Positions 628-25,369 of a stretch of DNA of 64,000 nt are shown here, piece after piece. The stretch comes from Neocallimastix lanati (nom. inval.) (taxonomy: Eukaryota; Neocallimastigomycota; Neocallimastigomycetes; Neocallimastigales; Neocallimastigaceae). The position numbers and the translations under genes are program-made. The notes beneath the pieces are model-generated. The model was not told the origin of the DNA. It did no database searches and saw only the letters and a list, made by a program, of their open reading frames with translations. The DNA is taken from the NCBI GenBank assembly GCA_016946835.1, contig JACVTC010000155.1, positions 184,501 to 248,500 of the forward strand. The letters run 5' to 3'. Numbering within the stretch: the stretch's first letter is position 1; every line of letters starts with the position of its first letter.

Positions 628-679
<52 letters not shown>

Positions 680-1343: not shown

Positions 1344-1380
<37 letters not shown>

Positions 1381-2490
1381 ATAAATTATTAATTAAGGAA
1401 AAAAAAAAAAAAAAAAAAAAAAAGTAAGTTACTTTTAAAAAATTATAAATATACTCTCTTTTTCTATGTAAATATATATATATATTTGTCTTCAAAAAAT
1501 TTCAAATTGTAATTTCAAAAGTTTTCCTTTTTTATTGATATATAGAAATATATAAAAATATATAAATATAAAAAAAAATAATAATAAAAAGAATTATAAT
1601 AATATAATTAAGAATGATTTAAAAATTTATTTTTATTGCAAGATATGTATTAATCCCATAGAACTACTATTTTTGATTATCATTTATTATTTTATTATAT
1701 TTTTTATTTCATTTTATTTTTGAGATTAAAATAAAATAAATTATTTGCTAAATAAAAATAAGATAATATAAAAAAAAGATATATTAATAATAAGATAATT
1801 TAAATAGGTAATAAAAAAAACAGGTATGCATATGCTTAGTATTTTTTTTAATAAAAAAATATATCTTTCAATTAATTGATGAAATTAATGTTTTTTAATA
1901 AAAAGTATTATTTCCTTTTTTCTGTAACATTTTATTAATCAATTAATTTTTTTTAAAATATATATATATATTTATTTATTTAAAGTTTTAATTTAATAAT
2001 AAAAGATTATCATCAAAAATTCATATAAAAGTTCATTGAATTAATAATTACCTCTATAAATAATGGATATATATAAACAAAGAGTAATTAAATATGAAAA
2101 TGAAAAGAAAAAATTTATATTATTAATGAGCAAAAATCTTCTCAATTTAAGCTTTCCGTCTTAATTATAAGAAATAAAAAAAAATATTAATATCGACTTT
2201 TTAATCAAATCAAATAAAAAATAAAAAATAAAAAAAAAATTTAATTAAATTAAATTAAATAAAATTGTAAATATGAAATCTTAATTATTATAAAAAAAAA
2301 AAAAAAAATTTTTTTTTTTTCATTTTTCATTTTTTTATTTTAAAGTTATTACTTTGTATTTTGATTTATACGAATTTTAAAATTATAATAAAAAAATGAA
2401 TATTACTATCATATATTCATTCATACTTCTAGTAAGAAAAGAGGTAATTAATTATTTTTATATTATAAATATATTTATATATTTATATAT

Positions 2491-2566
<76 letters not shown>

Positions 2567-2612
2567 ATTTTCTTTGAATTATTTTTATTTTAATTTATTC
2601 TTCTTCTTCTAC

Positions 2613-2644
<32 letters not shown>

Positions 2645-2717
2645 TATAATTAATAATAAACTATAGAAAATTATAATAATAATAATAATAATAATTAAAT
2701 AATTAAAATAAAATAAA

Positions 2718-2752
<35 letters not shown>

Positions 2753-3241
2753 TGTAAAATATATATAACATAGATGGAGTAAGAAAAAAAAAATTTTTTT
2801 TTTCTTTTTTATTATATAACATTATATAACATATAGATCAATTATACTTTTTTTTTTTTTTTTATTAATATTTTTTACCAATTTCATTTTGATTATTATT
2901 ACTATTATTTTAATTAATTATTCATTAAAAATGTTTTTTTTTTTTTTTTTAAATATATATATATATATAAATTTTATTTTATTTTATTTATTTTTTTTAC
3001 TTTTTCTCTCTCTCTCTTTATTATTTTTTTTTATTGTTTTTAATTTATAATTTTTTTATTTTAATTTTTATAATTTTTTCTTTATTTTAAGATTTTTAAC
3101 TAATAATTATTTAATTTTTTTGTTAAATTTAAAACTTAAATAAATTTGAAGTTGTCTTTTTTTTTTATTTTTTATTTTTTATTTTTTTTTTATTATTATT
3201 TATTTATTATTATGACTATAGATAAGTAATAAAAATTTTAT
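944..3241. other. Intergenic low-complexity DNA
   Basis: About 2.3 kb of A/T homopolymers, (AT)n and (ATT)n tracts between the divergent 5' end of the left-edge gene and the 3' end of the ubiquitin-fold gene. No reading frame has coding character; the one near 2396-2593 is a translation of A and AT runs. No RNA gene was recognised. Confidence 0.6.
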
Positions 3242-4290
3242 TTATGAAATAATACAACAGCATGATGCATTGGCTGGTTTTACATCATCTTCTTTATCTT
3301 TTTCATCTATGTATTTTTTTTTTTTATTAATATATTAATAACAAATAATTTTAATTAATAAATATTGAATTTTAATATATAAAATTTTAACAAATAATAA
3401 AAAAAAAAAATATTTATAAATTTATTTCATTAATACTATTTAAATAGATATACATATTAGATATACATTTTATATATCATTAAATAAAAGAGATAATATT
3501 TATTATAACAAAAATAAAAAATAAAAAAATAAAATATACCTAATTCCTTTTTAGAAAATTTAATAATTAAATGAACAATAGTAGTTTGACCTACTGGAAG
3601 TTTATTAGCTAATTAAAAATTATAATATTAATATTGTATTAATACATATACATATTTAAAATGAATTATTACAAATTTCAACAATAAAATTATTTTTTTT
3701 TTTTTTTAGTTTCAGTAGTTATATTTATTATTAAAGATACAAAATAAATATTGTATAAATATGGTTTAAATAATTTAAATCATAAGATGAGTTACCTTCT
3801 AAAGTACTTTCATCTTCCAAATATTTACCATAATGTAATATTTTGATATTGTTTATTGTTGTTGGCACTTCATCCGTCCATTCTATAATCAATTTTCATT
3901 TTATATTATAAATTTATATAATAATTATTAAATAAAATAATCATACCATTAATAAAAATTATTATGTAAAAAAAGTTTTAATGATAATTACAAATATATA
4001 TATAAATATATTTATTTCAATATAATATATTTTTATTTTTTTAATTATTGCTTTTAATTTCTATTAATTCTATTATAATGTTTATATTTTTTCTGCCATT
4101 TACCTTTTGGCCATGTATCCAATATTTGTTGTTTTAAGTTTAGTATAGTATCTGAAGATTCAAGTAGGACATCCGTTCGAGTTCCATTGGGTCTAAGTAA
4201 ACGTACATTAACTTTATCACTTGGTACTTCTTCATTAATTACAACACCATGGTTTGATGAGGTTTCCTTATTTTCAACTTCTTCACCAGC

Positions 4291-4321
<31 letters not shown>

Positions 4322-4796
4322 TATATATGTTAATATAAATTATACAATAAAATAACATGTTTAATTTATTAAAACTATGCTATTTATATGATAATAATAA
4401 TAAAAACAAATATAATAATATAAAGAAAAATTATTTTTATATTTATATTTATTGCTATATATTATTATATGCTTCACATATAAAAATAATAGTATTTACT
4501 ATTATATAGTTTACAATTAATTTATTAAAATAATGTTATATTTATATGATAATAATAAAAATATATATATTCATTGCTATATATTGTTGTATGTTAAATA
4601 TATAATAATAGTATTTACTGTTACATAGATAACAATAAATATTAAATTGCTTGTAAAATATATATATATATATATTCATTTGAACATTTATAGAGTTATT
4701 TTTTAAGAAAAAAGAATTGATAAAGTTAAAATTGAAAAAAAAAATACCTTCAACTAATTCGTCCTTATTAGTTGCTTCAGCGTTATCAGTATCCAT
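3242..4796 (-). CDS. UBL3: Membrane-anchored ubiquitin-fold protein, UBL3/MUB family (5 exons)
   Basis: The exons are 4796-4748, 4289-4104, 3882-3796, 3608-3540 and 3306-3242. All four introns are GT..AG and every exon boundary is in phase 1, giving 151 aa. After an acidic N-terminal tail of about 45 residues comes the ubiquitin fold: VNVRLLRPNGTRTDVLLESS, an LKQQILDTWPKEWTDE helix, IKILHYGKYLEDESTL, and KLPVGQTTIVHLI. These match the animal UBL3 and plant MUB pattern (NWP..W, Y.G..L, LP.G.TTVMHL). The C-terminus is SCCCIIS, a CaaX box (C-I-I-S) with extra cysteines, so prenylation, possible palmitoylation and membrane anchoring are expected. There is no C-terminal di-glycine, as usual for the family. 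In other organisms these proteins work in membrane sorting or E2 recruitment; the role here is inferred. The longer acidic N-terminus is the main difference. Confidence 0.9.
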
Positions 4797-5502
4797 AAGT
4801 GGTGAATAATATTTATATTTGTTTGAAAACGTCGTTGTTAAAAATATTTTTTAAAAAAAAAAAAAAAAAAGAGGAATATGAAAAATGAATGTATTGATAA
4901 AAGGCTTTAAGAGAGTTTTTTCTACTCCTGATTATTGACTTTTTTTTTTTTATTTATATATTATTATATATTTTTTGTTTTTATATTATATGTTGCTATA
5001 CTTTATTTTTACTATTTTTTTTTTTTATTTGTTTTTTTAATTGTTTTATTAATTCCAAAATTGCTTTTTTTTTTTTTTTATTTTTTTTTTTATTGAAATA
5101 TATATTACTTTAACGGAAATAAAAAAAATAATTTTATTTTATTCAGATAAGAAATAGTTATATATATATTTATGTGTGTGAAAATAATATATATATTATT
5201 CTTTCAAATTGAAATAATTTTTTTTTTTTCAAAAAAAAAAAAAAAAAAGAATATATTAAATGAATAGCTCTGAAAATATATATATGTATATTTTTTTTCC
5301 AATCAAAAGATATATCCTAAATGAAAGTATCCAAATATTCCAATATTAATTGTATCAATTAAAATATAAAATAATAATAAAAAAAAAAAAATAGAATATA
5401 TATAAATAAAAATATCGATTAAAAAATAGATTAGTTTAATATGATATGAAATAATTAATAATTAATTATTATAAAATAGAAAAATAAAAAAAATATATAT
5501 AT
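4797..5502. other. Upstream region of the UBL3-like gene
   Basis: AT-rich non-coding DNA containing poly-A/T runs just upstream of the start codon. It probably holds the 5' UTR and promoter, but no individual element can be supported. Confidence 0.45.
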
Positions 5503-5779
5503 AATATAGTATAATAGTGTTTTTTTATTGTTGTATTTAACTTGTCATAACATATTTAATATAGTATAATAGTGTTTTTTTATTGTTGTATTTAACTTGT
5601 CATAACATATTTAATATAGTATAATAGTGTTTTTTTATTGTATTTAACTTGTCATAACATATTTAATATAGTATAATAGTGTTTTTTTATTGTTGTATTT
5701 AACTTGTCATAACATATTTAATATAGTATAATAGTGTTTTTTTATTGTTGTATTTAACTTGTCATAACATATTTAATAT
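5503..5779. repeat. 55-bp tandem repeat, five copies
   Basis: Units begin AATATAGTATAATAGTG at 5503, 5558, 5613, 5665 and 5720. Four steps are 55, 55, 52 and 55 bp; the short one has lost a TTG. The copies are otherwise almost identical, implying recent expansion. Each unit carries ACTTGTCATAACATATTTAA. No coding frame is present. Confidence 0.9.
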
Positions 5780-6032
5780 TATATTTAATTTATTTTTATT
5801 AATTATAAACTAAGAGAAATAATAATTATTATTTTTTTAATTAATAGATAATGTCATTTCTTATTACTAATATTTTTGATTCAATTTAATATTGTATTAA
5901 ATATCATATAAACAAATATTATTTATATTAAAGAAATTAATAATAGTATTTAAATTGAATTAAATATTCAACATTTTAAAAATAAATAATATATATAAAA
6001 AATATTATTTATAATGAGATGATTTCATCTTT

Positions 6033-6063
<31 letters not shown>

Positions 6064-6784
6064 CATTTTTATTATATATATATTAGAAAAAGTTTAATTT
6101 TTTTTCACGCATATTTATAATAATAATAAAATATTTAATCAAAATGAATAATACTCGTATTAATTAATAATAATTTTATTTTAGGTATTATAAATTATTT
6201 TATTTATTTATTTATTTTTGGAACTTTCATTTTGTGGTTTTGTGGTTTGCTTTGAAATATCTATATCTTACTTTACATAATCAAAATTTATGATTTATAT
6301 TTTTGAAAAACTTTTTTTTTATTTCTTTATTTCAAAAAAAAATATATTTATATATGAATTTGTATATATTTGTATATAGATTTAATGTTTCTATTATTCT
6401 TTTACATTTAAAGAGTATATATTAGATATTTTTATAGAACGATAAAAGATACTTTTTGTTTTAAATGAACTTTTTATTTGCAAATAAGATATTATATGTA
6501 TTATTATTAAATTATTAGAATTATACTGTAAAAAAAATATATATATATTATTATTTTAATATTATTATTGTTATAATAGTATTAATTATATTTGTTTTTT
6601 AATCTTCATTAAATAACAATATATAAATCCAAATATCATATTTGAAATGTCATATTAAATGGTTCTTTCTATTTTTATATTAAAATTTAAGCTTTTGTTA
6701 AAAGATATTTACTTTCTACTTTATGGTAAAAATAAATAACAAAAAAAAAGTAAAACAAAAAAATTCTTATTATTTTTAAAAATT
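5780..6784. other. Intergenic AT-rich DNA
   Basis: Roughly 1 kb without a credible reading frame or RNA gene. It contains a T-run at about 6038-6063 and then leads into the heptanucleotide array. Confidence 0.55.
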
Positions 6785-7410
6785 CTAATAATAAATAATA
6801 AATAGTAAATAATAAATAATAAATAATAAATAATAAATAATAAATAATTGAATAATAAATAATAAATAATTGAATAATAAATAATAAATAATAAATAATA
6901 AATAATAAATAATAAATAATAAAATAATAAATAATAAATAATAAATAATAAAAAGAGTATTTATTAATAAATAATAAATAATAAATAATAAATAATAAAT
7001 AATAAATAATAAATAATAAATAATAAATAATAAATAATAAATAATAAATAATAAATAATAAATAATAAATAATAAATAATAAATAATAAATAATAAATAA
7101 ATAATAAATAATAAATAATGAATAATAAATAATAAATAATAAATAATAAATAATAAAAAGAGTATTTATTAATAAATAATAAATAATAAATAATAAAAGG
7201 AGTATTTATTAATAAATAATAAATAATAATAAAGAGTATTTATTAATAAATAATTTAATAATAAATAATAAATAATAAATAGTAAATAATAAATAATAAA
7301 TAATAAAAAAAGCATTAATTAATAAATAATAAATATTAAATATTAAATATTAAATATTAAATATTATATAATAAATAACAAATAACAAATAATAAATAAT
7401 AAATAATAGA
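6785..7410. repeat. Heptanucleotide (AAATAAT)n array with recurring spacer, first block
   Basis: Long runs of the 7-bp unit AAATAAT are interrupted at irregular spacing by a conserved spacer, AAAAAGAGTATTTATTAAT (for example near 6949, 7155, 7196 and 7230), with degenerate versions near 7306. The unit is not the trinucleotide repeat common elsewhere in the window. The block decays into AAATATT and AATAACA variants near 7330-7400. Confidence 0.9.
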
Positions 7411-7980
7411 ATTTGAAATAAAGATAAACCTGAAACCATAATAAAAACAAAATAAAATAAATCAATATATACAGAATTTACATTCAATATATAACATTCA
7501 ATATATTAATATATGAATAAAATTTATTTTTAATATATATTTAATATAGAAAATTTTATTAAAATTTGATTAAAAATCAAAAAATTTAATATAAAATAAT
7601 AATAATAATTAATAATAATAATTAATAATAATAATAATAAATAATAATTAATAATAATAATTAATAATTAATAATAATAATTAATAATAATAATAATAAA
7701 TAATAAATTATAAAAATAATAATAGAAAATAATAATAATAATAGAAAATGATAATAAATTAAAATGATAATAAATGATAATAATAATAATTATAGATAAC
7801 AATAATAATAATTATAGATGATAATAATAGATAATAATTATATATAATACTAATAATTATAGATAATAAATTATTATAATAATAATAAGAGAAAATAATA
7901 ATTGAAAATAATAAGAGAAAATAATAATAATAAATAATAATAAAGATGATAATAATAAATAATAAATAATAATAAATAAT
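7411..7980. repeat. Degenerate AAT-rich stretch between the two heptanucleotide blocks
   Basis: Starts with about 180 bp of less repetitive sequence, then imperfect AATAAT, GATAAT and ATAGAT repeats. No gene signal. Confidence 0.65.
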
Positions 7981-8340
7981 AAATAATAAATAATAAAAAG
8001 AGTATTTATTAATAAATAATAAATAATAAATAGTAAAAAGAGTATTTATTAATAAATAATAAATAATAAATAATAAATAATAAAAAGAGTATTTATTAAT
8101 AAATAATAAATAATAAATAATAAATAATAAAAAGAGTATTTATTAATAAATAATAAATAATAAATAATAAATAATTAAATAATAAAAAGAGTATTTATTA
8201 ATAAATAATAAATAATTAAATAATAAAAAGAGTATTTATTAATAAATAATAAATAATAAATAATAAATAATAATAAAGAGTATTTATTAATAAATAATAA
8301 ATAATAAATAATAAATAATAAATAATAAATAATAATATAG
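7981..8340. repeat. Heptanucleotide (AAATAAT)n array, second block with regular spacers
   Basis: Same unit and same AAAAAGAGTATTTATTAAT spacer as the first block, but the spacer recurs about every 40-55 bp (near 7995, 8036, 8085, 8130, 8185, 8227 and 8274). This makes a higher-order repeat. It ends close to the 3' end of a truncated signal-peptide fragment at 8431. Confidence 0.9.
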
Positions 8341-8430
8341 ATGATGATAATAATGATAATAAATAATAATTGTTAAGACTTATGAATTTATAGTTTATTC
8401 TAGTATTTAATTATTCTAAATTAAATATTT

Positions 8431-8541
8431 TTATATTAATACATTATGATTTATACCAAGATCACTTATCCAATCACAATCAGATGCAATAATACTCTGG
8501 AATAATGATATAAACCAAACAATAATTAATATCTTATTCAT
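8431..8541 (-). pseudogene. Signal-peptide fragment of a secreted protein gene
   Basis: Reading from ATG at 8541 gives 36 residues: a short basic start, a hydrophobic stretch (ILIIVWFISLFQSIIA) and then SDCDWISDLGIN before a stop. This looks like a cleavable signal peptide plus the first residues of a secreted protein. A GT lies after the DLG codons, so it could be a first exon, but the sequence beyond passes into the tandem array and no second exon is seen. It is divergent from the Cys-rich gene at 8699, with only 157 bp between the two start codons. I call it a truncated gene; the mature protein is not recognisable. Confidence 0.5.
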
Positions 8542-8698
8542 TTTTATATATAGTTATATTTTTTACTTTCTTTATTACTGCCTAAAATCAATTGAAAAGT
8601 CAAATGAATTTATATATTTTTCATATCTTTTAAAATATCTTTATTAATTATTTATTTGTAAAAATAATTGTGATTATAAAAGAAATATATTCGCAAAT

Positions 8699-9445
8699 AT
8701 GTACTACATTAATTTTATTCTGACTTTAATTATATTTCATATAATTTTTGTTTATACTTCTGATTTAGAACAACCAAAAAAATACTATTATTATAACAAT
8801 ATTACCTCTTATAAATATCATGATAATTACATTCATAAAACTTGGCCTACAACCCAAGAAAAAGTATTACAAATTAAAGATATCAATTTTCCTGGGTTTT
8901 ATTGTAAAAAAAATCTTTGTATATCTGAAGGAGATGAACCATTTGTTGAATTCGCAGATAAAAATGGAAATATAAAAATGTATATTCCAAGCACATGTAA
9001 TTATAATATTAAAAATACTAATTGTGTTACCACCTTATGTTCTTCCAATGAATGCTTTTCAAACCAATGTACTTCGGATTCAGAATGTTTATCTAATAAA
9101 TGTTTTATATCAAACACTAAAGAAAATTTATTAAATGGATGTTGTATATTTAACGATGAATTTCCTATAACACATTGTGCTAATATTCATACTAGATACG
9201 GTGCGTCATATATGCATTGTGGTAAGACACTATATGACTCATGTCAAGATGATGATGAATGTGGCTCACTAAATTGTGTAAATAACTATTGTGAAAAACA
9301 AAAATCTGTTCAGGTTTTAGGTATAGGTGATTACGTAACAATGTATATAATTATACTAATAATTATATTAATAATTATAATTATTTTATGTTGTTTTTGT
9401 CATATTAAATTACATAAACATAAACCTGCATTATTATTACTATAA
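8699..9445 (+). CDS. Cys-rich secreted type I membrane protein, family not recognised
   Basis: Intact single-exon frame of 248 aa. Residues 1-20 form a signal peptide (hydrophobic, ending near VYTSD). The ectodomain is Tyr/Asn-rich at first, then Cys-rich from about residue 72 to 199, with patterns such as CTSDSECLSNKCF and CQDDDECGSLNCVNNYC that suggest several disulfide-bonded knots. A hydrophobic helix (MYIIILIIILIIIIILCCF, about 215-233) is followed by a short basic tail. The expected topology is extracellular N-terminus with one membrane pass. Its base composition is clearly less AT-rich than its flanks, which fits real coding sequence. The C-x4-C type spacing resembles cysteine-rich surface proteins, but no named domain is secure. 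Function unknown. Confidence 0.75.
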   Translation: MYYINFILTLIIFHIIFVYTSDLEQPKKYYYYNNITSYKYHDNYIHKTWPTTQEKVLQIKDINFPGFYCKKNLCISEGDEPFVEFADKNGNIKMYIPSTCNYNIKNTNCVTTLCSSNECFSNQCTSDSECLSNKCFISNTKENLLNGCCIFNDEFPITHCANIHTRYGASYMHCGKTLYDSCQDDDECGSLNCVNNYCEKQKSVQVLGIGDYVTMYIIILIIILIIIIILCCFCHIKLHKHKPALLLL

Positions 9446-10309
9446 TGATTATTTCTGTTTTAATATCTTTTATTATAAATATAAATCATAATAATTGATA
9501 CTAATGTGAAAACTAATCAACTTCCTAATAGTAATAAACTGTTAATAATCTGATACCATAAAACCCATATAATACAACCATTAATAATATATTTATGCTC
9601 TTTACTACAATTTGCAAACATATATATTTTATATTAATAAAATAATAATAAATAAATATGAATCTATTATTAGCATGCAATTTGAATGAATTATACAATT
9701 GAGCTTGATAAACATCTAAATATTAGAAATTCAACAATAAAAATTAGATTTATCAATAATAATAAAGAAAAAAAATAAAAATATATATCAACATCTAGAA
9801 ATCATGGATAAATAATTATTTATGTAATAGCAATAAACAATGAATTTTTAAAACTTCATTTCATAATTATAGTTTGTAAAAGGGAATTCTTAATTGGAAT
9901 CAAACACACCAAAAGCTGCAAAATACTGTCCTGGGAGGCTTAGGTTTGTTTATATGTAGTTGATATTATTGATATATGCAGTAGATCTGAATGTTGTTGT
10001 TAGTTATGCATGCTCATATACTATTTTAAATTATTAATATATGTTTATGCAATATTTGTGCATATTCTGTATATTTGCATAATCAATATATATATTAGTA
10101 TTGTAATAGAAATATTATATATCAATAGTAGCATTGCATCAAGTTTAATGAATGATATTTTATGTTATAAATTCTGTATTCTAATTGATGGTACAAATAA
10201 TGGTAGTTCTAGATACGTTGTAGAAATATGTGATTATTTAAATTTATTTAATTATAAAATATTTATTTAAATATTATTATTAAAATGTAATTTAAGTTAT
10301 ATATATGCA
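9446..10309. other. Non-coding or decayed sequence downstream of the Cys-rich gene
   Basis: Composition here (near 9880-9990 and 10130-10220) is less extreme than true intergenic DNA, suggesting gene debris. A short open stretch near 10150-10260 includes ILIDGTNNGSSRYVVEICDY but has no recognisable domain. Nothing intact. Confidence 0.4.
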
Positions 10310-10482
10310 TACTTGTAATAACAACAATGCTGTTTTATTTTCTATTTTATCTGTTGTAGAATTGTAATAATAAACATATTCTGGTAAATTGGATTTGATA
10401 TTTCCATGATAACATCTACCTTGTTGAGAATTTCATCAGAATATGAATAATATGAAAGTTCTGGAAGATCTGTTAATTCACA
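10310..10482 (-). pseudogene. Fragment of a possible leucine-rich-repeat or secreted protein gene
   Basis: Reading down from 10482 gives CELTDLPELSYYSYSDEILNK, with LTDLP like a leucine-rich-repeat start. After a one-base frame change near 10418 it continues GRCYHGNIKSNLPEYVYYYN with another N.LP motif. No start, no full repeat and a broken frame make it a remnant. The LRR assignment is tentative because only two partial repeats are visible. Confidence 0.35.
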
Positions 10483-10625
10483 ATTATTTCAGTAGTATCT
10501 CTATAAAGTTTCTGTTTGAAATGATGATTTTATTGTTATTTTATTGTGGAATCCAATTCAACATCAATGTGTAATCTTGAGCTATATGCAAATTGAATTT
10601 ATGATGTTGTTTTGAGTTAATTATT

Positions 10626-11369
10626 TTGGGTTGGTTAAAGCAAACTTGCATCATCACCATCGATGTAGAAATATTCAGTATAAAAATAAAACCCCTATAT
10701 AATAAAATTTCTAAAGAAATGGGACTTATATGTCCAGAATATAATTCAATTAAATCCCAAATATCAAGAAATTTAAATAAAAAACTACCATCCAATGTAA
10801 CAACATTTGCTGAAATTCCAAGTGAATCTGAATATTATAAAACAAAGCGAGGTGAAAATTTTATGATATTCAAAAATTCTAATTTAATAATTTTTCAATC
10901 CCCTTTTCAAGCAAAATTATTTAGGGAATATAATGATGATATATTTGTTGATGGTACATTTTTTATTGCCCCTAAATTTAGTTATCAAGTATTTATTACA
11001 AGAACTTATGCTAAAGAATTAGATAGTTTTACACTACTTCTTTTGCAATATTAAAAAATAAAGAACAAGAAACATATAAAATGTTATTTGAAAAATTGAA
11101 AAAAAATGCTAATACATGTAGCAATAATATAAGAATTGAACCAAAAAATTTGCATTGTGATTTTGAAAGGGCCATATCTAAAGCAGCAAAAACAATATTT
11201 CCTAATACAAATATTAAATATTGCTTTTGGCATTATAAAAAATCACTAGAAATTAAGAAAAATAAATTATGCTATAATGAAGTAAAAAATAATAATAATA
11301 TATTTATTTATTATAAAGCTATTTCAAATTTACCATTTATAAATCCAGGACAATTAAACATAATATGAA
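10626..11369 (+). pseudogene. MULE-type transposase fragment, frameshifted
   Basis: From about residue 18 the translation is closely related to the minus-strand copy at 41601-43022 (shared blocks: SKEMGLI, LPSNVTTF, SEYYKT, FMIFKNS, FQSPFQAKLF, DIFVDGTF.IAPKF). The VDGTF motif holds the first catalytic Asp and HCDFE the second. A one-base shift near 11030 breaks the frame, after which the sequence continues to FWHYKKSLE and stops at 11369 (LPFINPGQLNII). The N-terminal FLYWCH-type zinc finger and the C-terminal third seen in the other copy are missing, so this is an internal fragment. The family moves by cut-and-paste; this copy is not functional. Confidence 0.8.
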
Positions 11370-11537
11370 TAGATATTCTAGATTTATTATTATGAATAAT
11401 TTCGTTTTCAAATAATATAAAATAAAATATAAAGGATATTAGTTTGAAAAATCTTACGATGTAGTTAGTTTTATAACCATAATGATATTTATTTAATTTC
11501 ATAATGTTATGTATTTATTTTATTTCATAATTTTTAG

Positions 11538-12325
11538 TCGTTGGTATGTGAAAATTTAATAACTTTCAAATAAGAAGTATACAGGTTTTGAGATGGATTA
11601 AGAAATGAAAATGGTTTTATTGAATATTGACTAACTATATTAAACTTATATTTTTCAAATATTTTTAGTACTTTTTCACTGTTAATTGCATTTTCATAAT
11701 GTTCTGTTAAATTTGAATTTTCAATATTTCACAAACATTATATTATCACATTCTTTATGCACATATCGTAAATTGCTTATTAAATAAAACTGGTGATTCC
11801 TTGTCGAATGAATATAAAAATTTATTTTTATTTGTATCAATACATTGTCGATATTTTATGCAAGGAGAATCGATATCACCATTAAATAAGCTATTATCCA
11901 TAAAAAGAACAATAAACATTCCATTGATATTTTTGCTAATATGGTTCAACATACTTTCAACGTCACTATAATTGAAATCATTAAGGGCAAAAAAAGCATG
12001 TAGCAATATTAAAGGAGTCTTTTAATTTAATGTTTTGAATAGTATTTGGATAAACGGTGATACGATTTTTAATATCTGATTTTTTTTAATTCTTTCATTT
12101 AAATTTTTTAATTTCACATTGTCAGGTTCAACACACGCAATTTTTCGGAAGTATTTCCATTTATGAATATCTCCACCATTCCCAGAACCTATATCAAGTA
12201 AGTTTCCTTTATATTCATTAAATATATTGTGTTTTATTCTATTATGATATTTACGCATTAGGGTATTAGAATCCGGTGAAAATATTTCAATATTAATTTT
12301 TTGAAAAGAAGCAAGAACTATACTA
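11538..12325 (-). pseudogene. Capping enzyme remnant: guanine-N7 methyltransferase segment
   Basis: Pieces at 12325-12022, 12006-11755 and 11720-11538 in different frames. The first has the SAM-binding loop (LLDIGSGNGGDIHKW) and CVEPDNVKLKNLN; the second has FFALNDFNYSD, matching the substrate-side strand of viral N7-methyltransferases; the third contains a plausible closing strand region (YSIKPFSFLNPSQN). The end at 11538 is the first stop in the last frame. Confidence 0.75.
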
Positions 12326-13292
12326 TTAAAAAGTATTTAAACTATTCGAGGTCCACTTATCTTCCCGTTCTTTCACATATACGCCTTTATCCAAATCGAA
12401 TTCTATAATAAAAGGAATTTTCTTTTCTTTCATTAGTTGATAGTAAACAATACGTTTATTGAACGGAGTATCATTGATAATATCCACTTTTTTATGGTAA
12501 TACATAATACTTTTATTTTTATCACAATTTAACTTTTTATATTGATGATACTTTAAACATATTTTTTTAAATTCCGCTAATGTCAATTTTAGATTCGACT
12601 TTTTAATTGAATGTTGTTTAGCGTAAAAATAACGACCATCAAATCGAAGATCAACCGTGTTCCTTGTTTTAATCTTATAAACTCTAATATGTTCAACCTT
12701 ATGGCTATCAAAAGGAATAATATTTTGCAAAGTATACGTAGAAGCACCATCTGTAATAATAATACCATTATTTGGCACTAAATTTTTATTTTCATTTTCC
12801 ATTTCATTTTCTATAAAATTTTGTAAATCGGATTAATTTCCGCATTTCCTAATTTTCTTTCGCTTAAATTTGTTCTTGAAAGAGTCAAAATTTAAAGAAT
12901 CAAGAATAGCAACGAGTTCCTTATAACTCTTTAATCTTAAAATCGACATTATGATAAAGAATATCAAATGGGATAAAATCATCATTTACAAATTCACAAT
13001 CGAAAACTAAATGAAGATCGGAGTTAATACAATCTATATATTCCACCTCGAAATTCTCAGATACACTAAACATTAAATGATTGATGATAATGACTAATCG
13101 ACGTAATCCGTCTGTTTTAGCAGCCACAAAGAACGTGTTTTTTACAAGATCATCAGCGATGTCGAATATGGTGTCCAGTGATGGTGTAATTGGTTTTTGG
13201 AATTCAAAGTTTGGTAATAAATAAAATAAATAATCTAATACGAAATTAGAACAATCAAGTAATAACATAATATCATGTACAATGTTTATCAT
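12326..13292 (-). pseudogene. Capping enzyme remnant: guanylyltransferase segment
   Basis: Two open pieces (13292-12921 and 12802-12326) joined by a short broken stretch. The first holds motif I (KTDGLRRL) with the nucleophilic Lys, motif III (DCEF) and IIIa (FDIL); the second holds motif IV (DG..IT) and V (K.KTRNTVDL) and then the start of the OB-fold region. The key residues are still present, so decay is probably not very old. At least two frame changes lie between 12921 and 12802. Confidence 0.85.
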
Positions 13293-13382
13293 ATCACATC
13301 TTTCATGATTTATATTTCTTGAGAAATCAATCTCGAATTGGCTTTTATCCTCATACTTCGTTACATCAATCCGTACATCCTA

Positions 13383-13592
13383 GTGAAGAATATATGATTT
13401 TCTATATTTTATAGTTGGAGTAATGAATTGTAAAATATTTAGCCCCTTATTAGATTTAATTTTTTTATTATAACCATTTTCTGTTTCAACCAAACCGTTG
13501 TCTAGAAAACTTACTATGTCGCTTACATCTAGATTGGTTTCAATACTAAGCACAATTTTATAAACGAAATAATAAGCCGTCATCAAAGTCAT
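13383..13592 (-). pseudogene. Capping enzyme remnant: N-terminal (triphosphatase) segment
   Basis: An open piece of 70 residues beginning MTLMTAYYFVYK and ending just before an in-frame TAG. The same frame resumes after the TAG with a DVRIDVTKYEDK..FEIDF block, typical of the basic/acidic strands of a triphosphatase tunnel. Upstream, a frame change in an A-run near 13595 separates it from about 35 further residues. The triphosphatase call is by position and strand pattern, weaker than the guanylyltransferase call. Confidence 0.55.
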
Positions 13593-14687
13593 TTTTTTTT
13601 GGTGAATTCAACTTTTCCATTTAGCGTTTCGGTGATTTCCTTTTCTGAATTGGTATCTTTTTATTTTCTATGTTTTCTTCATTATTTATATTACAAATAT
13701 ATATCAACACATTTGAAGCTTATTTTTCACATATTTCACATATTCTAACATTACACCTTTAATCAAGTTATTCTATAATGAATAAATTGGTTTACTGGTG
13801 AATATATGTATATAAAATTATACTATTTTATAAAATAAACTTAATGTTATTAAACAATTATTTATTTCTATTCAAAATTAACCTTGAATTTCACATGAAT
13901 AAAGTAATTTTAGATTATATTAATTAAATTTAAATATTGTTAAAATAATTTCCCCTAAAACTAAGTATTTAGTATTATTACACCATTTATATTAGATGTA
14001 TCTCAAACATCTTTTATAATATATAGTTTATATATTACTATTTATATGATAGGTGATATTATACTATTGTAATTTATGTGAATATCTCTTATATATCAGA
14101 TTTTACATCACTTTTAGTTATAATTCGCTTTGTAGTTTTAGTGATAACTATTAAAATTAATTGTTAATTATATATCAATGTATTTGATAAATTATAATCC
14201 TGGGATATTAAAATTGATTACATTTATAGCTTATTATATTTTTCTAATCATTTAAACTTATTAGTAAATAATATAAATTATTTCATAATTTATTACGATT
14301 CAATATTTCAGTTAATTACTTCTTGGAAGCTAATTTTCACTAATTTTCTCTATTTAGGCCTTAATAATCATCACAAAGAATCTCTTAAGTAGCTTTCCAT
14401 AAATATTTTAAGTTCCATATTTTATTTTGCCTATTTCCCCTTAAAATTCAAAATTTCTAAAAGGATTTTATATATTCGAATTTTTCACTATTAAAATATT
14501 AATGAGAGAATTTTAAATATAATAACTTTGTGAATATCTGGTAATCAATAAGTATAGTTTGCAGATGGAATAAATATTATCTATTTTTATATAATTCATG
14601 GTTATATTTATTATTTTATTATACCTTTCATCATGAAGGTATGTGTTATGATTATAATTAATTAGTTATTTTTAAACCCATTTCTCG

Positions 14688-14722
14688 CAAGGTTTAATAA
14701 TACTATTATCATTAGAATGCAC
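14688..14722. repeat. 35-bp direct repeat, copy 1
   Basis: CAAGGTTTAATAATACTATT followed by ATCATTAGAATGCAC. The second copy at 15794-15828 differs at two positions (transitions). The 1.1-kb spacing and orientation would fit LTR remnants, but similarity does not clearly extend beyond the 35 bp. Confidence 0.65.
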
Positions 14723-15793
14723 CATTTTACGCTAGGTGTAATGTTTTGCTTATTATTATTAAATGGAATTAGTTATTAATAATATAATACAAAACTTTAT
14801 TGACTCAATGGGTCGACATTATAACTATATAAATAAAGTAAAAATAAAGAAGATTGGTTTATTAAAATATTTGTTTAATTAATAGTAAAAGTATTAAAAT
14901 ATTGATTAATAATAACTAAAGTATTACTTATAAATTAATTATTAATAAAATAAAAACACAAATAAAAATATTTTGTTAAAGAAATCACTAATATTTATAC
15001 TTTTTCGGGGAAAAATAGTTTCTTGAATGAAAAAATATAAAAAGTTCTAAAAAAAGATTTTTATAACAGAATCATTAATTACAATTATTTTATTATTTTA
15101 ATATTTAGTATTATTTTTCAATAAAGTTTTAAAACAAATAATTAAATTTAAAAAATATTATTTCTGATATAGTTGTTAGTAACTAATACCATGAATCAAA
15201 CTACTTAGGGTTCGATTCACATTTATTATTATTTTATAGTTTTATTCTAAAAAATATCTAGAAGATTCTTTATAGTTCAAGAAATTACTAGAATTTCTTG
15301 ATAATTCTTGTGTTTAATTAATTAAAATTTATTCTACTAAATTCTTAATTCTATTGTTTTATATTTTTTTTAAATTTTTCGATTTTTAAGAACTTTTTAG
15401 AAACTTTTATTTTTATTTTTAATAACTTTAACTTTTGAAAAAAATATAAATATGAGTAAAATTCTTAATAAAAAATATTCTTTTCTTTGTGTTTTTTATT
15501 TTAATTTTGTTTAGTTAATAAAACTTAATTTTTTAATAAAACTTTTCAATATTAATACTATATCAACCCTTGCGGCTTATAGTATTATAATAAATATAAT
15601 TAATAAAATAATTAGAATAAAAAAATAAATAAAAAATAAAATAATTTTTGTTTTTTTTTGAGTGTTATTATATTTATTATAATATTTTGTTATAATTTTA
15701 ATCGATGGAAATGAATCATATGATAATAATAATAAAATTATTTTCTAAAATTAGAATTTTCTAAAAATTTTTGAAATTCTTAGATTCGTTACA

Positions 15794-15828
15794 CAAGGTT
15801 TAATAATACTATTATTGTTAGAATGCAC
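15794..15828. repeat. 35-bp direct repeat, copy 2
   Basis: Matches 14688-14722 with two transitions. Followed by TCATTTAATGATAGGAATT, where copy 1 has a different sequence. Confidence 0.65.
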
Positions 15829-18638
15829 TCATTTAATGATAGGAATTACCATTCTATGATATTTCCCATGAATATTTAGGATATTAAATTTTAAATTATT
15901 TTGAATAGGATCTCTGATATACAGTCTTCTCCATTATTTCAGGTTATATATACATACGAGTTTGATATGTATAAATACGTATTAAAATAACTATACTTTA
16001 AATAATATATTTTGTGGTTTAAAACAAAAATCATTACTTAATATATGATTGCTTAAATCTTCGTAATGTATATTATTAAATTGTGTTTTGTATATTTAAG
16101 AGTAAAAATAGTTTATGACATAATAGATTCCTTATGTATAGATATATTGCATTAATAATAGCCTAGAGTTTTATTTGTTAAAATATCAAATTATAATTTC
16201 AATTAAGAGTTTCAAATGTGAAGATCAATAATTTTCTCTTATAAACGTTTAAGCATGGTTTTCTCTATTGAATTGATATTTTTATATTTTTGGAGTTTAA
16301 TTAAATTACTGTAAAGCTGTGCTTAACAATAAGAAACAAGAATTTAAATTTATAACCTAATAAAATAAAACTTATTATTAAACATAAATCTTAAATCAAA
16401 AGATTGGTGCCAAAAAATAATTTATTAATTATTAATTTTTTAAATAAAAACATGATTAATAAATTACATGAAATTTTTGAGATATTTATACGACTTTTCA
16501 ATTAAATAAATTAATTAAATTTTTATGAATTAAATTTTTATAATTTAAACCAATAAAATAAATTTTATGCTAAAATATTTTAATAATAATAAATAAAAAT
16601 ATCTAAAGACTTAATAAAATCTTTAATAATTAATTATGTAATAATTGATTAATGTAATAAATTTACATAAATTTATAAAACAGCAGCAATTAGTTTGAAT
16701 ATGACAGTAGATGAATTTAAGAAATTACTTCAAAAAAATGAATCAATTGAGTAGTATTTATAATTTACTGTATATGAAAATTAATTATTAATTTATGTAA
16801 ACTTTTCATAAAAGGATAAATTATTATTTAAATAATTTTGGATAATAAATTTAATCTAAATAATTTATTTATTTAAGTTAGTTAAGTTAGTTAATTTAAT
16901 TTAGTTAATTTATTTAACTTAGTTAATTTAGTTTAGTTAGTTTAAAATACTTTAAAATTAATTTCGGAATAGTTTTAAATAGTTAAAATTAGTTTAAATA
17001 GTTTACAAAAATAGTTTTGAATTGTAAATATATAAACATTAGTATTAATAATATTTAAATAATAAATAAATAATAAATGAGTTCTTATTGAATTTAATTA
17101 TTATTGTAAATAAGTTGAAAGTTTATTGAATTAATTATTGTTTAGTTTTAGTTAATTTTAATTTAATAAAATTAGTAATAAATATTTTGTTTATAAATAA
17201 ATAGTAATATATGTATATTAAATAGGATTGATATATTAAAATGTAATCATGAAAAAATATAAATACATGTAAAATTCATTATTTAAATTGATGTATTAGT
17301 TATTGATTATCAACTAGTTAATAACAATAAGTGATTTGTTTTTATTAATAAAGATTATTTTATTTAAAAAACAAATTTTTATTACGTTTTCTTTTAATTT
17401 TAGTGTTAAAATTTTGTTATTTGTAATCTGTTTCCATTAGAACATTTTACAAAATAATAAATTTTTTAAAATAAATGTTCATATTCTAACTCACGAACTT
17501 AGCTATAAATTTTAAGTATTAAACACTAAGATATATCATTCATTTCTATAATCTATTATAATTACATATATTTTAACATAAAGCTATTCTAATGAATTTT
17601 ATTAAATAATAAATTTATAAGCTATAGCTAAATTTAGTAAAATATAATTATTAATTAAACTAAATACTAAATAATTTAAATTAAATACATTTATTATCTA
17701 TTTATTATTGTAATATTATAATTAAAAATTTAAGATTAATAAAAGAACAATGTAAGCTTAAAATAATTAATATTGAAATTAAATTTAACTAATCTTATTA
17801 TATAAAATATATTTATAATAAAAAAATAAGTCTTTTTTTGATATATTAGTAAATAGTCATTTTATCTTAAAAATTAATAATTAATTTTCATTTTAAATAT
17901 AACGAGACACTTTTGTTACGTTTTAAACTCAAGAGTATTGATTTAAAATTAGAAATTTAAAACTTTATAAAAATTAATAATTAAAAAAATTAAATAATTT
18001 TTATTTATTAAAACAACATTAGTGTTTCTAATAAAGCAATTTTAAAAAATTTTTATAATAAATCATACTTTAATTATTTTAAATTTTATCTTTTTGATAT
18101 AGTGTTATTAATAGACTAAAACAAGTTATTAATAATACCTTATCAGATTAGTTATAAACACTCAAAAAGTATTTTGATTCTGTTCCTGATCATTGCGGTA
18201 AAACGGATATTTATTTTTGTTATGGCAATACTTGAACTTCAATAATTGGGAAGAGGAATCATCATTTGATTTCTTTGATACTCCAAATATTTTAAAGGGT
18301 TAGGATTGATGTCAGAAATTATTATTATTATTATTTAATATCTATCATTAATAAAAAGATGTTTATTTTTATTATTATTATAAGTATCAGAAAATTTATT
18401 ATTACTGAGAATATTATTATTTATATTTTTATTAAAAATTGTTTCAAATCAAGTGTAATATTATCCAAATATAATAAAGAATAAATAATATAATGTGAAA
18501 ACATAATGCATAAATTTATAAAATATAATAACATAAATATAATAACTAACATTCACATTAGTGGCGTATTTTTGATCATATGTTTTTATGATATATATAT
18601 GTATAATATATTTTTATGTATAATACAAAATAATAAGT

Positions 18639-19207: not shown

Positions 19208-20361
19208 ATGAACTCCGCCACTACTACTACACCTTTTGTCCAAAAACTCAATGGAAAAAATTTTTGAACTTGGTACCTCTTTATTCAAAATTTCCTTAAA
19301 GGAAAAAGACTATTTCAATATACTGAAGTCGATATCATTGCTGAACGAACCAACGTTTTTAATCAATTAACTAATGAACTCCAAAATCTACAAGCTCAGG
19401 CCGAGAATAATCAAAATAACTTGGAACTTCAAGCCAAAATTCAAAATATTCAAGAGAAATTAATTCAACAACAGGACACTATAGAAGAGGCGATTGCCAA
19501 CGACGCTATGGCTAACTCTATAATCAACCCTAATGTAACAGAAAAGTTTTAAAATTTAGAGGAGAGAAAGAGCATTTGAAAAAATGGAGAAACTTAAACA
19601 ACTCTATGAAAGAGACGAAGAAGAAGAACATTCTATATGGTAAAAGAGGCTCTATAAACTTAAAGCAAGTGACATCAATAACACTATGGATGTCATAAAT
19701 GAAATTATGGAACTTTTCGATATGTTACACGAAATAAATTTAAATCCAAACAATTTAAAAAAACTCTCAATTTTACATAATGCTCTTCCAAATGAAATCC
19801 AAAATATTGTCAATTTTAGTGCAGACGTCAACCCAATTGAATTCTTCAATGATATCAAAAATAAGATTTTTATTAGAATATAATAGTAAATCCAACAGAT
19901 TCACCAGTTTAAACAACAATTATATTCAAAATTCTCCAGAAGACAACATGGACCTTGATTATGATCTTGACCACGTCTACCAACATAATAAAAATCTATG
20001 CAACTCAAAATCTTAACCTTCCAACATGAAATTTTATCACATATGTAAAATCAATGGACATTCCACCGACGAATGTTTTTTCAATGCAAAGATCAACAAA
20101 AGAATTCGAAACTCAAAAAATTACAAAAACAAAAGAATCAATCAAAAGAAACATAAATATAATTACAAAAAAACAAACTGGATCATTAAAAAACATCGAA
20201 CATAACGATGACTATGTCTCCTTCGATGAACTTTATAATAACTATTATGATTATTCCATTAACAGCATTGAATATACCGATGATGAATCCAAAAATAACA
20301 TAGAAACAATGGATAATCACGTGATAATACATAATAATAATTTTATCTTAAACTACAATTA
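19208..20361 (+). pseudogene. Ty1/copia-type Gag, broken, with a damaged zinc knuckle
   Basis: ATG at 19208. The first residues read FVQKLNGKNF, then a TGA in frame, then TWYLFIQNFLKGKRL: the copia Gag L.G.NF..W pattern. A Gln-rich coiled segment follows (LQAQAENNQNNLELQAKIQ), then several stops and frame changes. At 19686-19880 there is a helical Gag segment (MDVINEIMELFDMLHEINL). At about 20026 a CCHC-type zinc knuckle is visible as FYHICKINGHSTDEC: the second Cys, the His and the last Cys are kept, but the first Cys is Tyr (TGT to TAT). No pol follows, because a minus-strand gypsy element begins at about 20400. Confidence 0.7.
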
Positions 20362-20399
20362 ATAATATTTCATTTTTCATTAATATTATACTTACCAAT

Positions 20400-20453
20400 G
20401 ATCAGAGTCCAACGCGCTAACGACTGCGTCAGCCGGGAACCCCCACTATGAAA
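20400..20453 (-). repeat. tRNA-5'-half-like LTR block, copy 1
   Basis: On the minus strand it contains TGACGCAGTCGTTAGCGCG and TTGGACTCTGATC. This follows the box A and D-arm pattern of tRNA genes and continues into an anticodon-loop-like CTCTGAT (CUG, Gln-type). No T-arm follows in this copy. It sits 27 bases inside the 3' LTR start. Confidence 0.55.
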
Positions 20454-20484
20454 AACTCTTTCAATACTCTTAAACATTACAATG

Positions 20485-20494
20485 CCCCCCTTCT
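20485..20494 (-). other. Polypurine tract of the chromovirus
   Basis: AGAAGGGGGG on the minus strand, overlapping the stop codon of the chromodomain frame and directly before the LTR start. This is the usual primer for plus-strand synthesis in LTR retrotransposons. Confidence 0.7.
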
Positions 20495-21137
20495 AATGTC
20501 GGATTCCATACGACATAGGATGTGGTTTATCCGGAAATTTCTTGTGAAATTCCTTTAATAACCGAGGAGCATGTATGTCTTCAGCATTTTCCCATGACCG
20601 GTCTTCGGCGGGATATCCTTTCCAATCTATAAGGTACTATAGAACACCATCGACTATTCTTGAATCAAGAATTTCGTTCACTTCATATTCTAATTCATCA
20701 TTGACTAAAATTGGAGGTAGTTTAACAATGTTGCTGTCCGGGAAAGGATTTTCAAAGTAAGGTTCAAGGCGTGATACATGGAAGATTGGGTGTTTTCGAT
20801 CTCCTTTAGAAAGCTTTAATTTATAATTTTGATTCTCTAATACATCAATAATTTCGAATGGTCCTGATTTTCTAGGGTCAAGCTTCTTCAACTTCAAATC
20901 TCCTTTAGGATATAAAAGCCATACTTAATCACCCGTATTAAGCGTGGGAGGTTCTTGCCTTTTAAGATCTGCGTATTTCTTGAATTTCTCTTGAGCTTCT
21001 TTAATATTTGATTTTAGAGTGTTTAATGTAGTCTTGATATCATAGACTACTCTTTCAGCTTCAGGAACAGCCGACGAGGTGGGATTATCAATTAGGAATT
21101 CAGGCTCATACTTTAAATTTGCTTGGAATGGTGACAT
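20493..21137 (-). pseudogene. Chromovirus integrase C-terminal region with chromodomain
   Basis: Begins with SPFQANLKYEPEF, the GPY/F-type lead-in, through a helical segment and TLNTGD-stop-VWLLYPKG. Canonical elements read GDQVWL here, so the stop is probably CAA to TAA. Then come GPFEIIDVLENQNYKLKL and HVSRLEPYF, and a chromodomain: YEVNEILDSRIVDGVL, a TAG, then [17 protein letters not shown]. The TAG again sits where Gln is normal (LQYLVKWKGY). The chromodomain probably guided integration to methylated histones in the active element. Confidence 0.85.
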
Positions 21138-22065
21138 CTTAATTGATTCCTGAACAGTATTATTGTAAGCGAATTCTGCTAACGAAATGTAAGAACTCCA
21201 ATCTGAGAGTTATTGGTAAAACATCGAAGATACTGTTCAATGATACTATTAAGTCTTTCTGTTTGTCCGTCAGTTTGTTGATGATGAGCAGTAAATAATT
21301 TTGATTCACAATGTAATAGTTTACAAAACTGTTTGAAAAATTTTGAATGGAATTGTTTACCACGGTCTGAGATAATTTCTTTAAGTATACCATGTAATTT
21401 GAAGATATTATCTAATATTATTTTGGATGTTTCTTCAGTAGAGGGGAGTTTTTTAAGAGGGATAAAATGACCCATTTTTAATAATCTATCAACAACGATT
21501 AAAATAATTGTATAGTTATTTGAATTTGGTAGATCCGTGATAAAGTCGAGCGATATTGAAGACCAGTGTTTCTCAGGAATTGCTAAGGGTTGAAGTAGCC
21601 TATATGGTTTATGATTATTATTTTTATTTCTTTGACAGATGTCACAAGAGTTTACAAATCGGCGTACATCCCCCGAAGAGTCTTCCACCAAAAGTTTCTA
21701 CTAATAAGTTCAAAAGTTTAGTAATTCCAAAGTGACCTGAAGAAGGAGTATTATGATGAGATTGAAGAATATCAATACGAACAACTTCAGGAACATAAAT
21801 TCTATTGTTGTAAAATAATACATCATCATGAAAGGAGAAGGGAGAGTTTCGTAACTGTAGTCTTCTATTGTTATCAGTGGAATTAAAATAAGGGTCATTT
21901 GGTAATGAAGCACGGATTCCCTCAAGAAGAGAGTTATTGGTAATAGCGATAGTAGAACGTGTGCAAAAAAAATTCGAAGAATTAAGAATTGTACCAGGAT
22001 TAATAACTTTTCGTTCATAATCAGGTCTGCGAGATAGACAGTCAGCTCTATTCTTGGAGCCAGGT
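21138..22065 (-). pseudogene. Chromovirus integrase zinc-binding and catalytic core
   Basis: The HHCC zinc finger is visible as HHNTPSSGHFG and CDICQRNK. The catalytic triad is present: LDFITDLP (first Asp), IISDRGKQF (second Asp) and QTERLNSIIEQYLR (Glu). Frame changes occur near 21665 and 21180, so the core is a pseudogene although the catalytic residues survive. Confidence 0.85.
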
Positions 22066-22484: not shown

Positions 22485-23627
22485 TTAGAGGAGATGCAAT
22501 TTTTGAGAAATATTTTTTATGAAGCGCCTATAGTAATTGCAAAGACCCATAAATTGTTGTATGTGCTTGGTGTTTTCAGGTATAGGCCAGTTAAGAGTAG
22601 TGTCAACTTTATCTTTTTCCATAGAAATACCAGAACCAGAAAGGTGATGACCAACAAAATCTATTTCAGAGACGTCGAATTCACACTTTTCAAGTTTTAC
22701 ATATAAGTGGTTTTCACGAAGACGCTCCAAAATTAAACGTACGTGTTTGTGATGTTCTTCTAAGGTATTAGAAAAGATAAGAATGTCATCAATATAAGCG
22801 AAAGCGAAGACATCAAGATAATCACTGAGGACCTCGTTAATAAAGTGTTGGAAAGTAGCTGGCGCGTTCTTTAAACCGAAAGGCATAACTAAATATTCGA
22901 AATGACCAAATCTAGTATTGAAAGCAGTCTAAAATTCGTCACCTTCCTTAATACGGACTAAATTATAAGCTGATCGTAAATCAAGTTAAGTAAAATATTT
23001 AGCACCTCTAGCTTTCTCTAAAAGGTCGTTAATAAGGGGAAGTGGATAAGAGTTTCGAATAGTAATATCATTTAATATTCTATAATCAATGCATAATCGA
23101 AGTGTGCCATCTTTTTTACGAACAAAAAGAATAGGAGCACCAGCAGGGGAAATAGATTTATGAATGAAATTCTTTTCTAAATTTTCTTTGATATAATCTC
23201 TAAGGGCTTGAGTTTCCTCAACAGTTATTGGATAAATAGGACCATAAGGTAGAGAAGAGTCGGGTTTTAAGTCGATTCGACAGTCATAAGGTCTGTGAGG
23301 AGGGAGTTCATTAGCACCGTTTTCAGAAAATACTTCTAAAAGATCTAGGTAAACTTCAGAAATGGATTGATTTTCTTTAGATTTATCAATAGAAGGACAA
23401 GATACATAAATTGCGAATTTCATAGAAAAATTTCTAGGAGAGACTTTAGGAGTTTTAATAGGTTTATCTTTAAGATTATTTTTAGAAATGTTACTAGGTT
23501 TTGGAGAAATAACATTTAGAGCAGTAGTAGGAGTCGATTGATTAGAATTGGGAAGTGGAGGATGAATGGTAGTTGGAAATAGAATTTTTAGTATTAGATA
23601 CAACACAACGATTATTACAAGAATCAT
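22485..23627 (-). pseudogene. Chromovirus reverse transcriptase
   Basis: The upstream piece (23627-22986) ends [50 protein letters not shown]. After two stops (near 22985 and 22930) it continues MPFGLKNAPATFQHFINEVL and AYIDDILIFS, the catalytic YxDD. Then FVGHHLSGSGISM and the thumb region. Both stops interrupt a very conserved block (YFT.LDLRSAYNL...TAF), so no active RT can be made. Confidence 0.88.
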
Positions 23628-24110
23628 TATTAGAATTATTTTTAGTTATATTGTTATCTTTATTAATTTCACAATTTACTACATTTACTACATCCTTTTG
23701 TTTGAAATACAAATTTTCGCAATCGAATTCAACGACTGCTCTATTAGATTTGAGCCAAGGGGTACCAATAATTGGAGGTAAAGAGTCATCATCAATAATA
23801 ATAAATTTGATAGAAAATGAGTCGTTTTTATAAATAATCCGAAGAGGTTTAGTAATTCCAATAATATTGGAAGTTTTTCCACCACATTCAATAGTACCGG
23901 AGATTTTAGTGTCTGACACAGGAATATTATATTTGTTGATAAGGGATTTGGAAATTGTATTTTCTATTGCTCCAGAATCAACTAAAATGAAAATAAGGGT
24001 GGGTTCCTCTAAATCGAGTAAAAATGAAAAGACTGGGTAATTGCTATGGGGAACAAATGGATTATTTATTTTTAGATTATTGGTAGAAAGCTTAGCTCCA
24101 AAAGGATTAT
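23542..24110 (-). pseudogene. Chromovirus aspartic protease
   Basis: ILVDSGAIENTIS near 23960 on the minus strand carries the DSG catalytic motif, followed by the flap and by PPIIGTPWLKSNRAVVEFD, the usual ..ILG..WL..... block. The frame overlaps the RT-upstream frame by a shift near 23580. Confidence 0.75.
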
Positions 24111-24148
24111 ACTAGAGTAAGATTTAGGCTCAGAATCTACTCTAGAAG

Positions 24149-25320: not shown

Positions 25321-25324
25321 GAGC

Positions 25325-25369
25325 TATGGATCAAAATATAACTAATAAATAGTTATATTTTGATCCATA
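25325..25369. repeat. Perfect 19-bp inverted repeat with 7-base loop
   Basis: TATGGATCAAAATATAACT (25325-25343), loop AATAAAT, then the exact reverse complement (25351-25369). It lies about 40 bp from the tRNA-like block at 25410-25463 on the LTR side of the chromovirus. Absence of mismatches in a region this decayed suggests it is recent or maintained. Confidence 0.9.

Follow-up and report, generated by a model that had tools for sequence, protein, structure and literature searches.

How does a broken gene for a virus-type messenger RNA capping enzyme come to lie in the genome of an anaerobic gut fungus? The question is raised by a stretch of 64,000 nucleotides from Neocallimastix lanati (here the window), positions 184,501–248,500 of contig JACVTC010000155.1 (C63, 398,467 bp), which we analysed together with the whole assembly of 199,045,447 bp in 762 contigs. 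An initial annotation, made from the sequence alone, had taken the gene for a recent fossil of a large DNA virus or cytoplasmic plasmid. We find that the window holds a broken three-domain capping gene which was very likely captured from a virus-like element of 57–61 kb, copies of which are still present elsewhere in the same genome. The breaks in the gene, the conservation of its motifs, the selection acting on intact relatives and the gene content around those relatives are direct observations and are described in turn.

On the minus strand, positions 11,537–13,680 match, block after block, a capping enzyme in which triphosphatase, guanylyltransferase and methyltransferase are fused. In tblastn, the full-length relative P0010 aligns in six consecutive ordered blocks from 13,654 to 11,546 (51–75% identity), and P0005 in two main blocks of 95.5% and 92.6% identity (434 and 228 bits); on sequence grounds, the match is far above chance. 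Between 13,607 and 11,534, six stop-to-stop pieces carry the motifs that had first suggested a one-chain enzyme with an N7-methyltransferase at its end, and all four were recovered: AAKTDGLRRL (12,921–13,379), GIIIT and KTRNTVDL (both 12,326–12,832) and LLDIGSGNGGD (12,022–12,336). The gene is laid out as follows, from its front to its end (ORF, open reading frame; Pfam matches of single pieces are weak).

13,595–13,680, minus: scraps of the middle of the triphosphatase in a shifted frame, the gene upstream of them missing (tblastn with P0005 and P0010)
13,380–13,607, minus: second half of the triphosphatase, with a TAG stop at its end (ORF pieces and tblastn)
12,921–13,379, minus: last triphosphatase strands (RIDVTKY...QFEIDF) and start of the guanylyltransferase with the KTDG.R motif (ORF, protein search and tblastn)
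12,833–12,922, minus: guanylyltransferase linker in a different frame, closed by a TAA stop (tblastn)
12,326–12,832, minus: guanylyltransferase motifs IV and V and part of the oligonucleotide-binding (OB) fold (Pfam mRNA_cap_C, weak, 0.0063; tblastn)
12,022–12,336, minus: start of the cap N7-methyltransferase (LLDIGSGNGGD), with a TAA stop at its end (mRNA_G-N7_MeTrfase, PF03291, weak, 0.0022; tblastn)
11,755–12,021, minus: middle of the methyltransferase (ORF and tblastn)
11,537–11,728, minus: C-terminal end of the methyltransferase (ORF and tblastn)

The motifs have survived in a frame that is broken several times, as had been proposed. There are three in-frame stops (13,380–13,382, 12,833–12,835 and 12,022–12,024) and at least five changes of frame (near 13,600, 12,935, 12,330, 11,790–11,830 and 11,730). 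The triphosphatase is present in its second half; tblastn places nothing on its first 120 residues or so, which include the first ExE motif, and to that extent the earlier reading of a triphosphatase has to be trimmed. With its N-terminus gone and its frame broken in this way, the window copy is a pseudogene.

Relatives were sought in two protein searches, for which the candidates were proteins with exact words in common with the query. The triphosphatase and guanylyltransferase pieces, joined in one frame with X at stops, gave 36 matches with E ≤ 1 among 556 candidates; those with a named organism all come from anaerobic gut fungi (Neocallimastix, Anaeromyces, Piromyces), the best at 95% identity. 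A profile of the guanylyltransferase and methyltransferase gave 44 matches with E ≤ 1 among 7996 scored proteins, and 43 of them are from anaerobic fungi or are metagenome proteins near them. The remaining match, P0049 (E 8e-14), comes from an environmental contig; it is 768 amino acids (aa) long, fuses the three domains in one chain and aligns collinearly over 392 columns (99.1%). No Ceg1- or Abd1-type protein was among the profile matches, which were restricted to exact-word sharers, and neither search returned a named virus protein at E ≤ 1, P0049 alone coming up. Scans of a viral-contig collection and of a genome-contig collection returned no capping-enzyme relative. A degenerate cap-methyltransferase pattern had zero matches in the former, so that collection probably holds no such viruses; it did yield two weak polymerase matches of 24–25% identity.

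In the intact sister proteins, a triphosphatase (ExE), a guanylyltransferase (KxDG) and an N7-methyltransferase are fused in one chain. Ten motif patterns, loose ones drawn up after the sequences had been seen, were compared with the 28 family members of at least 680 aa: nine occur in all 28 and the triphosphatase A pattern in 27, the one without it being P0036, a protein that lacks that region. Two gene models belong to the fossil itself: P0044 is the N. lanati model matching it, and P0008, from a 2.3-Mb contig of Neocallimastix sp. 'constans', is near-identical to the window where the two overlap and skips the broken places. Judged by this gene model alone, the fossil locus seems to be present in two assemblies.

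A quick tree of 47 rows with one distant outgroup, which cannot place the family among viruses, was built without P0008 (being a model of the fossil) and without P0048 beyond its first 125 residues. The window pieces group with P0005–P0007 and P0042–P0047 in a set of 12 rows, with a Shimodaira–Hasegawa-like approximate likelihood ratio test (SH-aLRT) value of 100. They stand outside a second set (SH-aLRT 100) of 21 rows, mostly full-length Neocallimastix proteins, so the fossil did not arise through decay of one of those intact genes. As the sequences group here, the window copy belongs to a separate divergent subfamily with no full-length member among the tree rows. Among the intact proteins, P0024, P0029, P0031 and P0035 have nearly the same front as P0018, P0026 and P0033 but end in another type of methyltransferase, a sign that copies may have recombined. 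In a Piromyces gene model, the capping enzyme runs into a polymerase exonuclease domain.

The virus-type character that had been proposed for the enzyme is supported by the fused relative P0049 and by structure matches, which serve as support only, since the predicted structure model is poor. Nine of the ten best matches among viral proteins come from large DNA viruses; eight of the nine are named capping or mRNA 5'-phosphatase enzymes and one is a ligase, and the tenth match carries no name. The sole solved structure at E ≤ 0.001 is one chain of the vaccinia RNA polymerase complex, which we take to be the capping enzyme. In nucleocytoplasmic large DNA viruses, too, capping enzymes are fused (vaccinia D1 and those of African swine fever virus (ASFV), marseilleviruses and pithoviruses). 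These enzymes have the same domain order and motifs as the gut-fungus family and are its best structure matches, but in sequence they are very distant from it. Nuclear capping enzymes of the Ceg1 and Abd1 kind are separate spliced genes, whereas the sisters are fused in one open frame. A separate guanylyltransferase gene was found through exon-sized matches on contigs C51 and C1; it is presumably the host's own, in keeping with the initial annotation.

Intact copies abound elsewhere in the N. lanati genome. A search with the full-length protein P0018, in which 49 of 5614 first-look candidates were scored (copy counts are lower bounds), gave at least 89 matches; the window copy is not among the matches listed. 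Reading those matches, we find stop-free capping frames of 925–984 aa on at least 26 contigs, 19 of which measure 15–87 kb and three more than 200 kb (C100, C721 and C146, the last 1.65 Mb). A polymerase exonuclease match also lies on 15 of 24 open-frame contigs, a tally without C146 and C238. Twenty copies were fetched; in 16 the frame reaches 900 aa or more, and 11 of these are distinct in DNA. Over 50 of the 55 pairs of these 11 (dS > 0.02), the ratio of nonsynonymous to synonymous substitution rates (dN/dS) has a median of 0.27 and a maximum of 0.51 and reaches 1 in none; in a run restricted to plus-strand loci the median was 0.22. The intact capping genes are under purifying selection. 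Other copies are degenerate, showing stops or short frames; they occur on long contigs, C55, C112, C752 and C742 among them. On the first of these (425 kb), at 364,024–385,586, such a copy sits between two polymerase matches of opposite orientation, and one C55 polymerase frame is open over 1184 aa.

What accompanies the intact copies was read from pieces of contigs C209, C193 and C184. On C209, the genes are the following.

2,796–6,302: NPH-I/VETF-like helicase (best solved structures poxvirus NPH-I, 5.3e-15, and VETFS, 2.8e-7)
11,910–13,409: second part of Rpb1 (PF04998, 4.1e-14)
14,073–17,603, minus: B-family DNA polymerase (PF00136, 4.7e-68)
20,002–21,711: part of a D5-type primase-helicase (PF08706, 6.9e-8)
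22,554–26,085, minus: Rpb2, in two frames (PF00562, 3.7e-54)
26,084–26,698: uracil-DNA glycosylase (PF03167, 5.5e-8)
27,273–30,059: capping enzyme
30,973–31,545, 31,724–33,577 and 51,488–53,350: secreted chitin-binding proteins (PF00187)
about 37,902–44,240 and about 44,922–50,852: two very large proteins, each from two pieces, with signal-like starts as judged by eye
54,873–57,029: first part of Rpb1 (PF00623, 5e-21)

The initial annotation had called for a search for B-family DNA polymerase and D5-type primase genes and had suggested that this fungal lineage hosts, or hosted, an element bearing them; both genes lie beside intact sister copies, which bears the suggestion out. With its own Rpb1 and Rpb2 and an NPH-I-like helicase, the element thus has the Nucleocytoviricota features of B-family polymerase, D5-type primase-helicase, RNA polymerase and helicase. 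The primase-helicase homologue on C193 matches TIGR01613 at 1.5e-34, with primases C962R (1.9e-7) and D5 as its best solved structures. Rpb1 is split inside its domain 5 into two distant ORFs, whose profile positions 1–54 and 43–265 are complementary (C193 and C209). Rpb2 is a 1005-aa frame plus a short one on C193. Neither the A32 packaging ATPase nor VLTF3 was found among the scanned element ORFs, no genome-wide search having been aimed at them, and ORFs of 736, 480, 290, 283, 233, 196 and 151 aa had no convincing family match. Between 30 and 53 kb, C209 encodes a cluster of chitin-binding or lectin-like secreted proteins together with the two very large ones, each about 2000 aa long and signal-like at the start, which match no known family. 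The glycosylase motif on C209 reads GDEPYQ where we take GQDPYH to be usual; judging from this altered motif, the enzyme may be inactive or structural.

The size of the unit follows from repeats within the contigs. In four of the five contigs tested, the contig start is repeated 56.6–61.1 kb further on with 99.8–100% identity, which points to circles or head-to-tail arrays of that length. Base 1 of C184 recurs at 61,097 (99.98–100%) and base 1 of C193 at 58,616 (99.8%); C194 repeats in register from base 636, 59,445 bases on (99.97%); and positions 1–3,124 of C209 recur at 56,598–59,722, the contig end (99.97%).

Taken together, the results lead us to the following course of events, modelled on poxviruses, ASFV and yeast linear plasmids. 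Working probably in the cytoplasm, the element would replicate and transcribe its DNA with enzymes of its own. Its transcripts would lose their 5' gamma-phosphate to the capping enzyme, which would then attach guanosine monophosphate and methylate it, and the capped transcripts could be translated without nuclear capping. From time to time, copies of the element would enter chromosomes; the window copy would be a one-gene insertion of this kind, belonging to a divergent subfamily, that afterwards decayed and acquired transposon neighbours.

Several observations weigh against this reading. When 22 ORF pieces of the element were compared with the window (E 1e-3), the capping enzyme was the sole match; with no other element gene in the window, the copy might also stem from retrocopying or recombination of the capping gene alone. 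The predicted structure model has a mean predicted local distance difference test (pLDDT) score of 48.8, and the template modelling scores (TM-scores) of its matches are low, about 0.1–0.2. Rpb2 scores far better with Pol II (1.2e-60) and other cellular subunits than with the poxvirus subunit (2.8e-23), which argues against a simple poxvirus origin; its best chain (1.9e-61) is presumably archaeal, and a chain at about 7e-25 is, we assume, of ASFV type. The double jelly-roll major capsid family PF04451 had no match genome-wide in a weak search whose control also matched nowhere. A genome-wide search for the glycosylase family found one match, on C112, and missed the element's own glycosylases; divergent copies escape such searches, which weakens the empty capsid result. 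The repeat on C197 is not clean (98.5–99.4%, from base 4,208), and the self-repeats could equally reflect a tandem array.

That last point carries the strongest rival, which departs from our explanation solely in the present state of the element: the intact units would be an integrated, transposon-like tandem array, not a free plasmid or virus, and the fossil a stray piece of it. We regard this as possible, at somewhat below even chances. Open-frame copies do occur on the chromosome-sized contigs C146, C721 and C100, and the self-repeats fit tandems. On C721 (934 kb), the capping copy lies near the start, and 500-base probes at 40, 62 and 75 kb found no element sequence but one 91-base match of 74% identity, so at least this copy seems joined to other DNA. 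Set against an array are the full length of most fetched copies, the density of large ORFs (those of at least 150 aa cover 60–93% of the C209 pieces, compared with 26% of the window and 10% of its positions 1–18,000) and the scanned element ORFs themselves, among which no integrase was identified.

It is unlikely that the element is a relative of the yeast cytoplasmic linear (killer) plasmids. Killer toxins bind chitin, which the secreted chitin-binding proteins recall. These virus-like elements (pGKL2) also resemble the gut-fungus element in their fungal host and in bringing along a capping enzyme, a helicase and an RNA polymerase (PMC6211774). Their linear genome with a protein-primed polymerase was not found here, however: at E 0.1, PF00136 and PF03104 are the only families hit by the polymerase, which places it in another family, and the units of 57–61 kb repeat like circles or tandems and encode a D5-type primase-helicase and a uracil-DNA glycosylase.

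Still less probable is a fungal gene family, in which the copies would be long domesticated and duplicated host genes of ultimately viral origin and the window copy a dead paralogue. Many copies per genome, in at least three genera and under purifying selection, would suit it, but the copies sit on self-repeating units that supply a DNA polymerase, an RNA polymerase and a primase-helicase of their own, and the fungus has the separate guanylyltransferase on C51 and C1. A chimeric or contaminated assembly, which the many intact copies on short contigs might suggest and which the initial annotation named as grounds for giving up its reading, is very improbable, because P0008 follows the same broken pieces in a second Neocallimastix and the relatives were drawn from genomes and metagenomes independent of this one.

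As to what our preferred explanation, capture from a virus-like element, implies for that element, the chances are evenly balanced that anaerobic gut fungi harbour, as a living element, a DNA virus or a virus-like plasmid without a capsid. It would be a 57–61 kb circle akin to the large cytoplasmic DNA viruses, encoding a DNA polymerase, a split RNA polymerase, a primase-helicase and a capping enzyme of its own as well as secreted chitin-binding proteins suited to a fungal host. Neocallimastix lanati has been cultured, so the state of the element (circle, particle or integrant) is open to direct testing. Among the papers listed in searches of the open-licence literature, none reports a large DNA virus, or an element of this kind, from Neocallimastigomycota. 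If gut fungi do harbour a living element, it would occupy a place intermediate between the killer plasmids of yeast and viruses of poxvirus type, the first such in this fungal phylum, with a bearing on the kinship of capsid-free plasmids and large DNA viruses, and fossils such as the window copy would be a record of past insertions. Large DNA virus genes inside a fungal genome have a parallel in Rhizophagus irregularis, for which PMC10640383 describes a 1.5-Mb endogenous Asfarviridae-like region with PolB, RNA polymerase and capping enzyme; that is one region, whereas the gut fungi have many 57–61 kb units and isolated fossils. The same paper puts genomes of the large DNA virus phylum at 70 kb to 2.5 Mb, a range below which a 57–61 kb unit fully equipped for replication and transcription would fall. 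Mirusvirus episomes, described in PMC12768974 as persistent circular DNA plus an integrant in cultured eukaryotes, offer a likeness in the state of the DNA.

The transposon debris reported at the flank of the fossil was confirmed: a MULE-type (Mutator-like element) DNA transposon remnant adjoins it on the opposite strand, outside the capping gene.

10,605–11,368, plus: MULE-type DNA transposon remnant (PF10551, 2.3e-11, in 11,027–11,368)

The ORF at 10,605–11,054 (plus) has a weak RNaseH-like Pfam score of 0.1. Between 19,000 and 37,000, there are reverse-transcriptase-like and integrase-like ORFs of several retrotransposons, judged by eye. A phospholipid-transporting P-type ATPase (PF16212, 8.7e-79) is encoded by a large host gene on the minus strand (51,069–57,060), its N-terminal domain lying in a separate ORF upstream, and a FLYWCH zinc-finger ORF lies at 42,237–43,022.
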